DNA of 56,983 bases from Candidatus Gastranaerophilales bacterium (GTDB taxonomy: Bacteria; Cyanobacteriota; Vampirovibrionia; Gastranaerophilales; Gastranaerophilaceae): NCBI GenBank assembly GCA_947584965.1, contig CANPWQ010000007.1:1-56983 (forward strand), read 5' to 3'. The position numbers were made by a program, and so were the translations under genes. The notes below the pieces were generated by a model. The model did no database searches and was not told the DNA's origin. It saw only the letters and a program-made list of their open reading frames with translations. Positions 25,606-30,142 of the stretch are shown one piece after another (the first letter of the stretch is position 1; each line of letters opens with the position of its first letter).

Positions 25606-26235
25606 TTAATTTTTATTTGATATAATAAAAATCACTTCTTCAGCAAGCAGATTAGAGAAAATATTGTATTGTATGCCTTTTCGAACAGTTGCTCTTGTCG
25701 TATAAATACCTTGAAGAATTTTTATGTTATGTTTTTGCGCATATTCAAAAAAATCTTTAATTGTTAAAAGGTGAATGTTGGGAGTGTTGTACCATTCAAA
25801 CGGTAATACTTTTGACTTGGGCATATTACCTGTAATAAAAAATCTGAATCTTATTCTCCAATATGCAAAATTAGGAAAACTAACAATACATTTTTTACCA
25901 ACTCTCAGCATTTCATCTAAAACAAATTCGGGATTACATACTGACTGTAAGGTTTGATTTAAAATTACATAATCATACGATTTATCCGCAAATTGTTTTA
26001 ATCCCTCATCTATATCTCCTTGTATTACGGATAAACCTTTTTCAATGCAGGATATTACCTGCTCTTGCGATATTTCAATTCCGTTCCCGATAATATTTTT
26101 AGTTTTTTTAAGCAATTCAAGTAAATATCCGTTCCCGCAGCCTAAATCTAAAACTTTTGAGCCGTTTTCTATCATTTCTGATATTAATGAATAATTAACA
26201 TGGAGTCCTTTTGATTGTGTGTAGTGATTATCCAT
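25606..26235 (-). CDS. metW: MetW-like methyltransferase-fold protein
   Basis: 209 residues, the normal MetW length. The SAM-binding fold has VLDLGCGNGYLLELL and GNGIEI. The MetW hallmark block is SFPNFAYWRIRFRFF ... PKSKVLPFEWYNTPNIHLLTIKDF. In proteobacteria and relatives MetW pairs with MetX in homoserine O-acyltransfer and methionine synthesis. Here it overlaps metX by 8 bases as the last gene of metY-metX-metW, which confirms the pairing. Confidence 0.9.
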   Translation of the reverse strand: MDNHYTQSKGLHVNYSLISEMIENGSKVLDLGCGNGYLLELLKKTKNIIGNGIEISQEQVISCIEKGLSVIQGDIDEGLKQFADKSYDYVILNQTLQSVCNPEFVLDEMLRVGKKCIVSFPNFAYWRIRFRFFITGNMPKSKVLPFEWYNTPNIHLLTIKDFFEYAQKHNIKILQGIYTTRATVRKGIQYNIFSNLLAEEVIFIISNKN

Positions 26236-27361
26236 TATTATCTCCTTTAATATGATTGTTTAGAAAACTCCCGATTATTTTGCTTTGAACATCGTATTCA
26301 AGCAAAAATGCGTCATGTCCGCAGGGGGATTTTATTTCGCAATATGAAACATCTTTATTTAATCGCATTAAAGTATTTACGATTTCTTTTGCCTGTGATG
26401 AGGGAAACAGCCAATCGGAGTCAAAGGAAATAATAAGGAACTTTGATTTAGTGAGTTTAAAGGCATTTTCAAGCGAGCCGTATTTATTTTCAAGGTCGAA
26501 ATAATCAACAGCTTTAGTTATGTACAGGTAGCTGTTTGCGTCAAATCTGTCGACAAAAATTTCACCTTGGTGTTTTAAATAGCTCTCCACCTGAAAATCT
26601 ATATCAAAATTAAAATCATAATGCTCTTTATTTTGAAGCCTTCTTCCGAATTTATTATACATGGCTTCTTCACAAAGATAGGTAATATGACCAATCATTC
26701 TGGCAATAGATAAGCCTCTGTCGGGTTTAATTTCTTTATCATAATAATCGCCGCTATTCCAAGCGGGGTCTGAAATTATAGAGTTCCTTCCGACTGCATT
26801 GAAAGCTATTGCTTGCGGTGATAATTTAGAGGTAGTTGCAATTAATATTGCTGATTTTACAAAATCGGGATATGTAATTGAAAACTGCATTGCCTGCATA
26901 CCGCCCATTGAACCGCCTGCAACGGAATACAAACTTTTAACTCCGAGATAATCAAGAACTTTTTTTTGAATTTTTATTGTATCTTCAATAGTAAAAACGG
27001 GGAATGTTATTCCGTAAGGCTTACCTGTATTCGGATTAATGCTTGATGGTCCCGTTGTTCCGCTGCAGCCTCCAAAAATATTTGTGCAAACTACAAAATA
27101 CTTATTGGTATCAAATGGTTTATCAGGACCTATTAGCTCATCCCACCAGCCTGCTTTCTTATCATCTTTGCTTTTATATCCTGCGGCGTGAGCGTCGCCT
27201 GTCAATGCGTGAATTATTAAAATTGCGTTATCTGCATTTTGGTTAAGAGTTCCGTATGTTTCATAAGCAACGGTGACGGGTGAAAATTCAACTCCGCTTT
27301 CAAGTTTAATATTTTCATCTATTGTATAATATTGAGTTTTAACAATTCCTATGCTGTTCAT
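26228..27361 (-). CDS. metX: Homoserine O-acetyltransferase (MetX)
   Basis: 377 residues, normal for MetX. The alpha/beta-hydrolase triad is visible: nucleophile Ser151 in AGGSMGGMQAMQF, Asp in ISFDSDWLFP and His in CGHDAFLLEY. The N-terminal NAILIIHALTGDAHA and GPSSINPNTGKPYG blocks are typical. It acylates homoserine, giving the substrate for MetY. Whether it uses acetyl- or succinyl-CoA cannot be decided from fold alone. It overlaps metY by 4 bases and metW by 8. Confidence 0.93.
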   Translation of the reverse strand: MNSIGIVKTQYYTIDENIKLESGVEFSPVTVAYETYGTLNQNADNAILIIHALTGDAHAAGYKSKDDKKAGWWDELIGPDKPFDTNKYFVVCTNIFGGCSGTTGPSSINPNTGKPYGITFPVFTIEDTIKIQKKVLDYLGVKSLYSVAGGSMGGMQAMQFSITYPDFVKSAILIATTSKLSPQAIAFNAVGRNSIISDPAWNSGDYYDKEIKPDRGLSIARMIGHITYLCEEAMYNKFGRRLQNKEHYDFNFDIDFQVESYLKHQGEIFVDRFDANSYLYITKAVDYFDLENKYGSLENAFKLTKSKFLIISFDSDWLFPSSQAKEIVNTLMRLNKDVSYCEIKSPCGHDAFLLEYDVQSKIIGSFLNNHIKGDNNG

Positions 27362-28623
27362 TTTCTTGATATTTCTATTGCATTATCAATGTCTTCTATA
27401 ATGTCGTCAATATTTTCAAGCCCGATAGAAGCGCGCATATAATCATTTGTAATGCCTGCTTTTATTTTTTGCTCATCAGAAAGCTGTCTGTGGGTTGTTC
27501 CTGCGGGATATGTAATAATAGAGCGTACATCACCCAGATTAGTTGCGTGAATAAATAATTTTAATGCCTCTATAAATTTTGTTCCGTCGCCGTCTACTCC
27601 AAAACCTATCAATGAAGAAGCACCTTTGGGTAAATATTTTTTCGCAAGCTCAAAATCTTTACTGCTTTTTAAGAGCGGGTATGTGACAAAATTTATATGA
27701 GGGTGATTTTGTAAGTGTTCGGCAAGTTTTAGTGCATTTTCGCAGTGCCTGTCCATTCTAACATGCAATGTTTCAAGTCCTAACATCGTTAAATAAGCGT
27801 TAAACGGACTCATACAGCAGCCTAAATCTCTTATTAAATGAGTTCTGCATTTTGCTATGTATGCGGCATTTTTAAACGCCTCCGTGTATATTATGCCGTG
27901 GTAGCTTTCATCGGGAGTAGTGAGCATTTTAAATTTGTCATTGTTTTCCCAATGGAATTTACCGCTGTCAACAATAACACCTCCCATTGCATTGCCGTGT
28001 CCCGATAAATATTTTGTTGTGGAGTGAACTATAATATCCGCTCCATATTCAATCGGTCTTAAAAGATATGGTGTTGCTACCGTATTATCAATAATTAAAG
28101 GAATTTCGTGTTTATGAGCCAATTTTGCCAAATTTTCAATATCTGCAACTTTTATGCTCGGATTGCCTATGGATTCCGCATATATACATTTAGTTTTATC
28201 GGTTATTGCTTTTTCGTAGTCTTCAAGATTATCCGTATTTATGAATTTTACGTTTATTCCCATTTGTTTAAATGTTTTTGCAAATAAATTATATGTTCCG
28301 CCGTATATTTTTGCGGATGTAACAATTTCATCTCCGCACTCTGCTATATTTAATATAGCGATTAGTATTGCCGATTGCCCCGAAGATACGCTTAATGCCC
28401 CTACACCGCCTTCCAGCATTGCAATTCTTTTTTCAATCATTTCGCAAGACGGGTTTGTTAATCTTGAATATATGTCGCCCTCTACTTTTAAATCAAACAG
28501 ATTAACTGCGTGTTCTACGCTGTCAAAGCTGTATGCCGTTGTTGCATATATCGGCATTGATATGGCATGATTTTGTTTTTTTAAATCCGTAAATCCTTGT
28601 GTAGCTATTGTTTCAAATTTCAT
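27358..28623 (-). CDS. metY: O-acetylhomoserine sulfhydrylase (MetY)
   Basis: 421 residues, fold-type I PLP enzyme of the Cys/Met metabolism family. PLP lysine Lys204 lies in VHSTTKYLSGHGNAMGG. SSGQSAILIAILN binds the phosphate and IIDNTVATPYLLRPIEYGADI precedes the lysine. The length of about 420 residues and the GVIVDSGKF insertion fit MetY rather than MetB/MetC. It makes homocysteine from O-acylhomoserine and sulfide. It is the first gene of metYXW. A TATAAT -10 (28648-28653 on the - strand) leaves a leader of only about 20 bases, so there is no room for a SAM riboswitch. Confidence 0.92.
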   Translation of the reverse strand: MKFETIATQGFTDLKKQNHAISMPIYATTAYSFDSVEHAVNLFDLKVEGDIYSRLTNPSCEMIEKRIAMLEGGVGALSVSSGQSAILIAILNIAECGDEIVTSAKIYGGTYNLFAKTFKQMGINVKFINTDNLEDYEKAITDKTKCIYAESIGNPSIKVADIENLAKLAHKHEIPLIIDNTVATPYLLRPIEYGADIIVHSTTKYLSGHGNAMGGVIVDSGKFHWENNDKFKMLTTPDESYHGIIYTEAFKNAAYIAKCRTHLIRDLGCCMSPFNAYLTMLGLETLHVRMDRHCENALKLAEHLQNHPHINFVTYPLLKSSKDFELAKKYLPKGASSLIGFGVDGDGTKFIEALKLFIHATNLGDVRSIITYPAGTTHRQLSDEQKIKAGITNDYMRASIGLENIDDIIEDIDNAIEISRK

Positions 28624-28669: not shown

Positions 28670-28697
28670 TTGCATAATTATTTTTAAATGTTATTAT
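28670..28697 (+). promoter_or_regulatory. Promoter of the His-leader transcript
   Basis: TTGCAT (28670-28675), a 16-base spacer and TATTAT (28692-28697). It predicts transcription from about 28704, about 17 bases before the leader-peptide ATG. Confidence 0.4.
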
Positions 28698-28703
28698 TAA
28701 TTT

Positions 28704-28852
28704 GAAATAGGGAAGTAAAAATGTTAAATATAGTTTTAAAACATCATCATTGCCATAGCAACCTAAAAAGGCTGTTGAATTGGTAATGCGGTTTTAAAAT
28801 TTTTTCAATTCTTACAAAACGGTCTTTTTAGGTAGAAAAAACCGTTTTTTTG
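28704..28852 (+). promoter_or_regulatory. Transcription attenuator (antiterminator/terminator) after the His leader
   Basis: Antiterminator: ACCTAAAAAG (28761-28770) pairs perfectly with CTTTTTAGGT (28824-28833), and inside it GAATTG (28777-28782) pairs with CAATTC (28806-28811). Terminator: AAAACGGT (28816-28823) pairs with ACCGTTTT (28841-28848), with a further TTTT/AAAA pair in the loop and a T-run to 28851. A ribosome reaching the stop codon (28784) would cover 28761-28782 and free the terminator. A ribosome held at His codons 8-9 would leave these segments free to form the antiterminator. The order is that of classical attenuation. Confidence 0.65.
28721..28786 (+). CDS. Leader peptide rich in histidine codons (21 residues)
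   Basis: ATG 28721 follows AGGGAAG at good spacing and opens a 21-codon frame ending in TAA. Codons 7-12 read K-H-H-H-C-H: four of five consecutive codons (8, 9, 10 and 12) are CAT. This closely resembles the his-operon leader peptide (K followed by a histidine run). It lies upstream of a terminator and an alternative pairing, as in amino-acid attenuators. The gene controlled is the membrane protein at 28877, not a biosynthetic gene. Confidence 0.7.
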   Translation: MLNIVLKHHHCHSNLKRLLNW

Positions 28853-28876
28853 TACTTATGGAATTGGAGAAAAATA

Positions 28877-30142
28877 ATGTTAACATCTATTATATCGGCT
28901 ATCGGCAACAACAACAGTATATATCCTTTATTAATAAGAGATTGCGGAATAGAAAATCCTGTTAAAGTCGCAATGACTTATAAACAAAATAAATCTGATA
29001 AATATATTGCCAGAAATGCGGTAAGGGAAAGAATTATTGATGAATACGCTACATCTGCGGTTTGGCTTGGCGGTATTCCTTTAGTAGAAAAAATTTGTAA
29101 TAAATTTATAAGTAAAAAAGGTTTTAATCCAAATATAAGTAGTGAGCTTTTAAACGGAGATACTTTTCAGAATATTACGGCAAATATTGAACAGTTTAAA
29201 ACGAAAGCTCCTGATGCGGTTAAAGATTTAATAAAAATAAGAGATAATCAAAAGTTATATCAAAAGTTAAGCGGAGCAAAACTGCTTGCTTCAATTGCCA
29301 TTCCGACATTAATTATGGGATTTGTTCTTCCGAAATTAAATTTTGGAATTACAAAAAAAATTATGAAAAACAATTTAAAAGAAATGGTTATTCCAAAAAA
29401 TCAAGTTACATTTGAAGAATTTGATAAAAAAATAAAAAGAAAAAATAATCCTTCCTTTGGTTTAAATCCGTTTTCAGCGCTGAATAATTTAACAACGGTA
29501 CAAAAAATGGCTGTAACTGATTTAGGGCTTAGTGCGGGCAGAATATCTACCGCAAGAAATAAGAATGAGGCTTTTGACAATGCCGTTAAAATGACGGGAA
29601 TGATTTATTTAAATTATATTGCTCCTAAACAGACAGCAAAACTTTTTGATAAATTGACAAAGAAAATATTTAAGTTAAATGTTAATTTAGACCCTGTTGT
29701 TTTTTGTGATAAAGAATTTATCAATGCAGTTAAGAATAAATCACTTCAATTTCCCATGTCTGATAGTCCTCAAGACGTTTTAAAATTTATTGATTTAAAC
29801 CCTGAAGCGGTTATAACAAAACTGGCGGCAAAAACTAAATTAATAAAGATGTATGACTCAACAACAAGAGACCCCCGAAAATACGTAAGTATAAAGGACT
29901 TAAATGAATTTATTAAAAATATTAAAGATTTTAGCGAGAGTGCAATAAATTCAGGCAGGATTGATGAGTTTGCCAGAAAGGCAAAAACTGCAAAATGTTT
30001 AAATATAGTGGCAAATGTAGCATTAAGTTCATTCCTTTTGGCATTTTGTCTGCCTAAAGTTCAGTTTTTTATCAGAAAAATGGTGACAAAAAGTAAACTT
30101 GAACCGGGATTAGTGCAAAATCAGCGTGATGAAAAGGTATAA
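28877..30142 (+). CDS. Two-TM protein of unknown function, histidine-free, under the His attenuator
   Basis: 421 residues from ATG 28877, with GGAG 28865-28868 at spacing 8; an earlier in-frame TTG at 28850 falls inside the terminator T-run. Two hydrophobic segments share a motif: about 135-153 (SIAIPTLIMGFVLPKLNFG) and about 374-394 (ANVALSSFLLAFCLPKVQFF). This suggests an internal duplication. A P-S-F-G motif sits near residue 192. The protein contains no histidine at all but does contain Cys and Trp. I recognise no family; it looks lineage-specific. Its stop lies inside the convergent MFS gene (22-base overlap). Confidence 0.7.
   Translation: MLTSIISAIGNNNSIYPLLIRDCGIENPVKVAMTYKQNKSDKYIARNAVRERIIDEYATSAVWLGGIPLVEKICNKFISKKGFNPNISSELLNGDTFQNITANIEQFKTKAPDAVKDLIKIRDNQKLYQKLSGAKLLASIAIPTLIMGFVLPKLNFGITKKIMKNNLKEMVIPKNQVTFEEFDKKIKRKNNPSFGLNPFSALNNLTTVQKMAVTDLGLSAGRISTARNKNEAFDNAVKMTGMIYLNYIAPKQTAKLFDKLTKKIFKLNVNLDPVVFCDKEFINAVKNKSLQFPMSDSPQDVLKFIDLNPEAVITKLAAKTKLIKMYDSTTRDPRKYVSIKDLNEFIKNIKDFSESAINSGRIDEFARKAKTAKCLNIVANVALSSFLLAFCLPKVQFFIRKMVTKSKLEPGLVQNQRDEKV

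Follow-up and report, generated by a model that had tools for sequence, protein, structure and literature searches.

The described system standing closest to the locus reported here is arguably the hisL attenuator of the his operon of E. coli and Salmonella, which, as outlined in those parts of PMC9413887 that deal with it, shares with our locus a run of His codons within a leader ORF, mutually exclusive antiterminator and terminator structures, and a ribosome whose position decides between the two. The differences concern the lineage and the sequence (no Rfam match was found), the target, which here is not a his gene, the antiterminator strand, which here lies inside the ORF, right after the His codons, a possible extra helix over the Shine-Dalgarno site, and a target protein that avoids histidine. 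The His-leader attenuators of Firmicutes likewise combine several consecutive His codons with a terminator and an antiterminator, and the portions of PMC9413887 and PMC2965389 covering them place them upstream of his operons, possibly histidine transporters, and hisS/hisZ copies, i.e., known enzymes or transporters, whereas the target at our locus is a membrane protein without a known family. The nearest physiological parallel is found in histidine auxotrophs among Firmicutes and Actinobacteria, for which the relevant section of PMC9413887 describes a regulated histidine transporter controlled by a T-box or HisR, the target protein described below bearing no transporter likeness itself. The part of PMC2965389 (2010) concerned with distribution places leader-peptide attenuation in Proteobacteria and Actinobacteria, with bacilli added, and the best matches retrieved from the open-licence literature contained no report of a leader peptide or attenuation for Gastranaerophilales or Melainabacteria, and none on the target gene family.

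The locus lies on a contig of a Candidatus Gastranaerophilales genome, the whole analysed stretch of which (56,983 nt) is referred to as the window hereafter. The leader ORF, MLNIVLKHHHCHSNLKRLLNW followed by a stop codon, occupies positions 28721-28786 of the plus strand and contains, just as the preceding sequence-only reading had it, four CAT codons (codons 8, 9, 10, and 12), which form the regulatory stretch CAT CAT CAT TGC CAT at 28742-28756 (“region 1”). Its own Shine-Dalgarno sequence is AGGGA (28709-28713, plus strand), ending 7 bases 5′ of the leader start, and a purine motif with GG no more than 16 nt upstream of the leader ATG was counted by eye in 23 out of 30 relatives; relatives L042, L045, L052, L055, L057, and L060 were seen, also by eye, to have no purine-rich Shine-Dalgarno motif at this place, and translation of their leaders may start on transcripts that are leaderless or have only a very short 5′ end. 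A putative promoter, TTGCAT and TATTAT separated by 16 nt (28670-28697, plus strand), for which the expected transcription start would be at about 28704, was read from the sequence by eye and is matched by comparable hexamers in the corresponding position of relatives (e.g., L032 and L036), while not being among the calls of a consensus promoter scan. On the other side, divergent from the leader, metY, metX, and metW (ordinary methionine synthesis genes) stand in a row on the minus strand at 25606-28623. The gene directly downstream of the leader, referred to as the target gene, spans 28877-30142 of the plus strand and encodes a 421-aa membrane protein built from two related halves.

Between the His codons and the target gene, the RNA can be paired in more than one way. 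The sequence-only reading had drawn a 10-bp antiterminator (28761-28770 with 28824-28833) and a terminator hairpin (28816-28823 with 28841-28848) as alternatives, both of which are indeed present; the two helices as given, however, share nothing, and the exclusion is real only because the antiterminator in its full extent is a 16-bp helix, G-U pairs included, between 28761-28776 (“region 2a”, inside the leader ORF) and 28818-28833, which overlaps the 5′ arm of the terminator at 28816-28823. Both the 3′ strand of the antiterminator and the 5′ arm of the terminator are thus contained in a single shared strand, “region 4a” (28816-28833), while the 3′ arm of the terminator, together with its T-run, makes up “region 4b” (28841-28851), identified by complementarity and by the count of T-rich stretches. 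The antiterminator is prolonged by a second pairing, that of GAATTG close to the end of the leader ORF (“region 2b”, 28777-28782) with 28806-28811, the latter being part of “region 3” (TTTTTTCAATTC, 28800-28811), which, in turn, is complementary to the segment containing the GGAG of the target gene (“region 5”, GAATTGGAGAAA, 28861-28872; all regions are on the plus strand). The geometry proposed in that reading holds as far as the logic of attenuation per se goes, yet it needs the 16-bp helix and the possible Shine-Dalgarno helix (3:5) to be complete. The leader segment folds more stably than expected (z = −3.09, with 0 out of 200 shuffles being equally stable). A search of the whole window against the RNA families of Rfam 15, his leader and T-box among them, with the curated gathering scores as cut-off, returned only a tRNA, and a mechanical terminator scan, which admits loops of 3-8 bases only, a range exceeded by the loop of the terminator hairpin as originally drawn, called none at the leader.

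Orthologs of the target gene (E up to 1e-40) were present in 227 of the 383 genomes sampled from the bacterial family to which the window belongs, representing 23 out of 41 genera, and the upstream DNA was examined for 129 of these 227. A His-rich leader, defined as a short ORF with at least three His per six codons, preceded the gene in every one of the 129, its stop codon lying 70-196 nt upstream, so that the His codons had been lost by none (0/129) of the examined relatives keeping the gene, a check that had been set beforehand; these counts are, nevertheless, not those of independent events, because the species are related. The leaders carry 3-7 His codons each (548 CAT and 29 CAC over the 129), and the first of these falls at codons 8-11 in 123 of the 129, the peptide being otherwise variable (e.g., MFTPSVKRHHHNHHHCH, MLIKSIKTQQHHHIHIVPNRLAD, and MKNIVSRQFHHHHHSNLKRL). 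Equivalent searches for a His leader, performed as controls, found one at 1 out of 41 other genes of the window, at none of 30 Arg-type paralogs (see below), and at 1 out of 29 hisD loci. A set of named relatives (the best 80 out of 226, overlapping the 129-ortholog set) had the His leader in 80 out of 80 loci; many of the records in question are labelled as Candidatus Gastranaerophilales or Melainabacteria, others as uncultured bacterium, and two as Fusobacterium sp.

Covariation was evaluated on an alignment of 46 leaders (9 of the 55 selected having been omitted), and both alternative helices were found to covary. In the antiterminator (ON) structure, 88.2% of the cells were paired and two-sided changes numbered 113, versus 38.8 for shuffles; pairing was best at slide 0, dropping to about 56% after a slide of a single column. 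The first 30 orthologs, aligned with none left out, gave 84.9% paired cells and 54 two-sided changes against 21.7. The terminator stem had 75.7% of its cells paired over the 46 leaders and 62 two-sided changes against 28.2, with each of its 9 pairs (9/9) having undergone a two-sided change. Since terminator and antiterminator both covary, strand 4a retains its complementarity to two different partners. An alignment-free comparison over all 129 leaders, in which regions 2a and 4a of one species were paired with each other or with those of other species, gave a mean duplex energy of −23.8 kcal/mol for own-species pairs versus −14.5 kcal/mol for swapped ones, the own-species duplex outdoing at least 80% of the cross-species swaps in 115 of the 129. 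The accessory helices varied in this respect. Region 2b was paired with region 3 in 85.6% of the cells of the aligned leaders, and own-species pairing of 2b alone could not be distinguished from that with swapped species; a hairpin between the His codons and 2b showed no covariation above shuffles, its duplex energies being −11.0 for own versus −8.0 for swapped species. For the Shine-Dalgarno helix, 78.2% of the cells were paired and two-sided changes did not exceed those in shuffles (aligned leaders), with duplex energies of −10.0 for own versus −7.4 for swapped species.

The effect of the ribosome was approached by a folding model, in which a ribosome masked the RNA either at the second His codon (“stalled”) or at the stop codon, and the RNA was cut just after 4a. 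Under these premises, the 2a:4a helix is predicted to form (mean probability above 0.5) in 125 out of 129 leaders with the ribosome stalled and in 17 out of 129 with the ribosome at the stop codon. The equilibrium fold of the full-length leader retains 2a:4a only in part in the stalled state (mean of 0.38), which is why the switch would have to rely on folding during transcription. The proposed course of events would be as follows: with histidine present, the ribosome would reach the leader stop codon and cover 2a and 2b, whereupon 4a would pair with 4b as the terminator and region 3 would be free for the Shine-Dalgarno site, turning the gene OFF; with histidine absent, the ribosome would halt at the His codons, and, with 4b and the Shine-Dalgarno site still to be transcribed, 2a would capture 4a and 2b would capture region 3, turning the gene ON. 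Stalling, termination, and Shine-Dalgarno masking in vivo are inferred.

The two exits of the OFF state might not be used equally by all of the members. In 87 of the 129 leaders, the one in the window included, the segment separating 4a from the Shine-Dalgarno site contains a T-rich stretch (at least 6 T in 8, a criterion laxer than stem-end calling), versus 33.5 expected from shuffles. Calling T-runs from the end of a predicted stem yielded low counts (e.g., 18/129), probably because the T-run is itself base-paired to the stem's A-run. The remaining 42 of the 129, having no T-run, would therefore need the Shine-Dalgarno route. Predicted accessibility of the Shine-Dalgarno site in the full-length RNA was 0.46 with the ribosome stalled versus 0.40 with the ribosome at the stop codon, with 79 out of 129 leaders gaining accessibility on stalling and 15 out of 129 losing more than 0.1. 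Some known attenuators act by sequestering the ribosome-binding site and not by termination, as the sections of PMC9413887 on this subject indicate, and T-boxes sequestering the Shine-Dalgarno sequence are dealt with in the part of PMC1262725 used here; the same outcome would be expected in those 42 members, whereas in many others termination and (putative) Shine-Dalgarno masking seem to be stacked on one and the same leader, unlike in the attenuators described in those parts of the sources.

The protein encoded downstream, for its part, avoids the amino acid that the leader senses. The target protein of the window has no His among its 421 residues, and 71 out of 80 orthologs in the named set (0.03% His overall) and 21 out of 30 in the first ortholog set (0.08%) have none either, while the His content is 0.94% in the Arg-type paralogs, 0.79% in leaderless paralogs, and 1.40% in other genes of the window. 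Such avoidance is to be expected if the protein must be made while the histidine tRNA is empty, and a low content of the cognate amino acid is also known from biosynthetic enzymes.

The distribution of the gene points in the same direction. hisD, called by TIGR00069 over the same 383 genomes, was found in 101 of them, with 221 genomes having the target gene only, 95 hisD only, 6 both (G045, G052, G260, G340, G347, and G378, retained as exceptions), and 61 neither (Fisher p = 6e-40, a statistic that ignores kinship); put differently, hisD is present in 6 of the 227 genomes with the gene versus 95 of the 156 without it. The exclusion is also seen within genera: the gene, hisD, and both are present, respectively, in 7, 31, and 0 genomes of genus g1, in 14, 14, and 1 of g22, and in 14, 11, and 3 of g6. 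Some match to PF00977 (hisA/hisF) occurs in all 41 genomes of g1, with an E-value of 1e-46 or better in 31 of them and a weak one (the best no better than 1e-7) in the same 10 that are without hisD, the window's own genome among them, and the loss therefore extends beyond hisD. Three of these 10 (G003, G028, and G034) have neither hisD nor the target gene. All of the assemblies are drafts, and any one missing gene might simply fall into a gap. The two highest-scoring hisD matches of the family (G260:C10 and G378:C9) are located in genomes that also have the target gene, with argG lying about 6 kb from hisD on the same contig in G378, which suggests re-acquisition of hisD by transfer in these two. 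Gastranaerophilales carrying the target gene, on the whole, seem to be histidine auxotrophs.

On these comparisons, namely the conserved cognate codons, the covarying exclusive helices, the avoidance of the cognate residue, and the exclusion of hisD, the leader is very probably a ribosome-mediated attenuator that senses how far histidine tRNA is charged and regulates the adjoining downstream gene in cis. The idea put forward by the sequence-only reading, that of histidine attenuation of a non-biosynthetic membrane-protein gene, is thereby strongly supported by the 129 out of 129 leaders and by the covariation of the alternative pairing, whose loss would have spoken against it.

The strong hydrophobic segments of the target protein are at residues 136-154 and 374-392, its halves match each other (hhalign probability of 92.4%, E = 5e-7), and its AlphaFold model is confident (pLDDT of 86.6) and nearly all helical. 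Searches of Pfam and NCBIfam with the protein gave 0 families at E 0.001, 29 members of the family compared with known families gave only scattered matches (E of 0.0012 or worse), PHROGs, PADLOC, and PDB sequence searches with the protein revealed no convincing relative, and a structure search with the predicted model returned nothing that matched clearly, helix matches to ABC exporters having been discounted as a common helical arrangement. The most frequent neighbouring family was present at 25 of the 80 named loci only, and no relatives in viral contigs were confirmed.

That the protein helps to obtain histidine in cells unable to make it is, in our judgement, about an even call. The same attenuator might instead drive a general starvation effector, involved in growth arrest, membrane remodelling, or self-digestion rather than acquisition, and this possibility, which we consider real and yet rather less probable, would go well with the lack of transporter likeness, of a widely shared neighbour, and of more than two strong hydrophobic segments; it would, however, leave it unexplained why the gene is rare among genomes with hisD (6/101), which should likewise benefit from a general response to starvation. 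The “new target class” for histidine sensing that had been suggested for this locus is, accordingly, new as a protein family, but the target protein probably still serves histidine supply and not some unrelated process, because it is found mainly in genomes without hisD.

The window's genome also contains a sister gene (G000:C24:1-2493, L061), 27% identical, whose leader has paired Arg CGN codons. Among relatives of this “Arg-type” at E 1e-50, the best 30 out of 250, all from the window's genus (L061 and L257-L285), have an Arg-CGN leader without exception (30/30; e.g., MKYTQNRRNLIKEGFTI followed by the stop codon, with CGACGT), and just upstream of the gene in 26 of the 30, there is a second RR leader, which ends in WxL and the stop. 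The genes themselves use CGN for none of their 171 Arg codons, only AGA/AGG. The comparison groups do use CGN, the leaderless paralogs for 40 of 167 Arg codons, the window genes for 85 of 376, and the His-type genes for 147 of 418; the Arg content of the Arg-type is 1.29% versus 3.20% for the His-type. Nine WGL-type paralogs from outside the window's genus had no CGN among 105 Arg codons either. Leader codons and gene codons thus avoid each other for two different amino acids. Selective charging theory, as set out in the part of PMC1183508 at hand, holds that leaders are made of the most starvation-sensitive codons, with E. coli and Salmonella biosynthetic operons as its subject; the CGN leaders and AGR-only genes of the Arg-type fit this prediction, here in membrane-protein paralogs instead of biosynthetic operons.

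The reach of Arg control is narrower than the paralog family as a whole. argG was above the cut-off in 22 of the 383 genomes (23 with a split copy in G281), and an Arg-type match (E 1e-50) was counted by eye in 10 of the 23 argG genomes, all belonging to genus g37, and in 240 of the 360 genomes without argG, an association that is weak and is therefore not used as support. Among 20 diverged paralogs, an Arg pair in a short upstream ORF was seen by eye in 12 and was absent from 8, meaning that Arg control is not common to every paralog. An upstream ORF ending in MNLxWGL and the stop, or similarly, recurs before many of the diverged paralogs (L372-L391), with an Arg pair or without one (e.g., a CGN pair is absent from L372 of the argG-bearing genome G076), and the conservation of this C-terminus would fit an arrest peptide or a separate RNA element. 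A different paralog, 32% identical (L073, at ~1.6-1.85 kb of G071:C93), with 1 His in 461 residues, is preceded by two tandem His-rich short ORFs, one being MNTLFTQAERHHHHN followed by the stop codon and the other, containing HHHHCEHH, overlapping the gene out of frame; this is perhaps an independent second origin of His control. A leaderless subfamily of about 515 aa (G000:C22:17992-19419, L086, and its relatives L089-L096) has 0.79% His and 3.57% Arg, and no His- or Arg-rich short ORFs were seen in its upstream DNA. The broader notion of a paralog family of “amino-acid-famine” membrane proteins, in which each leader senses one amino acid and the gene avoids that amino acid or its codons, is put forward tentatively, as one that we would not quite bet on.

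The paralogs bear, at the same time, on a different reading of the leader peptide, namely that of an arrest peptide or metal sensor, in which a His/Cys-rich nascent chain binds metal or stalls in the tunnel regardless of histidine supply. HHHCH-like peptides can bind metals, and several of the leaders do read HHHCH or HHHNHHHCH; the positions and neighbours of the His residues, however, vary widely, only the presence of at least three His within six codons being constant, and it is tRNA charging, not metals, from which target proteins without His, Arg-leader paralogs without CGN, and a gene tracking the absence of hisD would all follow, making this explanation quite unlikely. An even smaller chance is given to the small RNA or the leader peptide acting in trans with the gene as a bystander: in the 87 of 129 members with a T-run, termination would set free a short leader RNA, which would fit the stand-alone RNA also entertained in the sequence-only reading, but the leader precedes 129 out of 129 orthologs examined, the protein's own His content is tuned to it, and a covariance model, which finds related leaders only, detected just 6 copies in 58 genomes, each upstream of the target gene and one of them in the window's own genome (where the pattern CAYCAYCAY occurs at 92 places versus 21 for the backward pattern, and where other His leaders, of unrelated sequence, may exist). 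A chance His-rich ORF beside ordinary AT-rich hairpins, conceivable inasmuch as a cluster of this kind (at least three His per six codons) is found in 3 of the window's 370 ATG ORFs that are 14-30 codons long, one of the three being the leader itself, is refuted by the 129/129 conservation and the covariation of both alternative helices.

With the attenuator reading, leader-peptide attenuation, a kind of regulation already known, reaches a cyanobacteria-related lineage, where its target family is new and may have a new function as well. A widespread, unassigned protein family (227 of the 383 genomes) gains, without culture, a regulatory signal and a physiological setting: the target gene, which occurs mostly where hisD is absent, is probably expressed when histidine is lacking, and needs almost no histidine for its own product. 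Together with its Arg-sensing paralog, it provides concrete candidates for amino-acid acquisition in uncultured gut bacteria, and the Arg-type paralog, with its CGN leader and AGR gene, offers a natural test of selective tRNA charging. If the tentative view of the whole paralog family is true, its members could be made while the matching tRNA is empty, and they would constitute a previously unknown amino-acid scavenging machinery in Gastranaerophilales, replacing the biosynthesis that these bacteria have lost.
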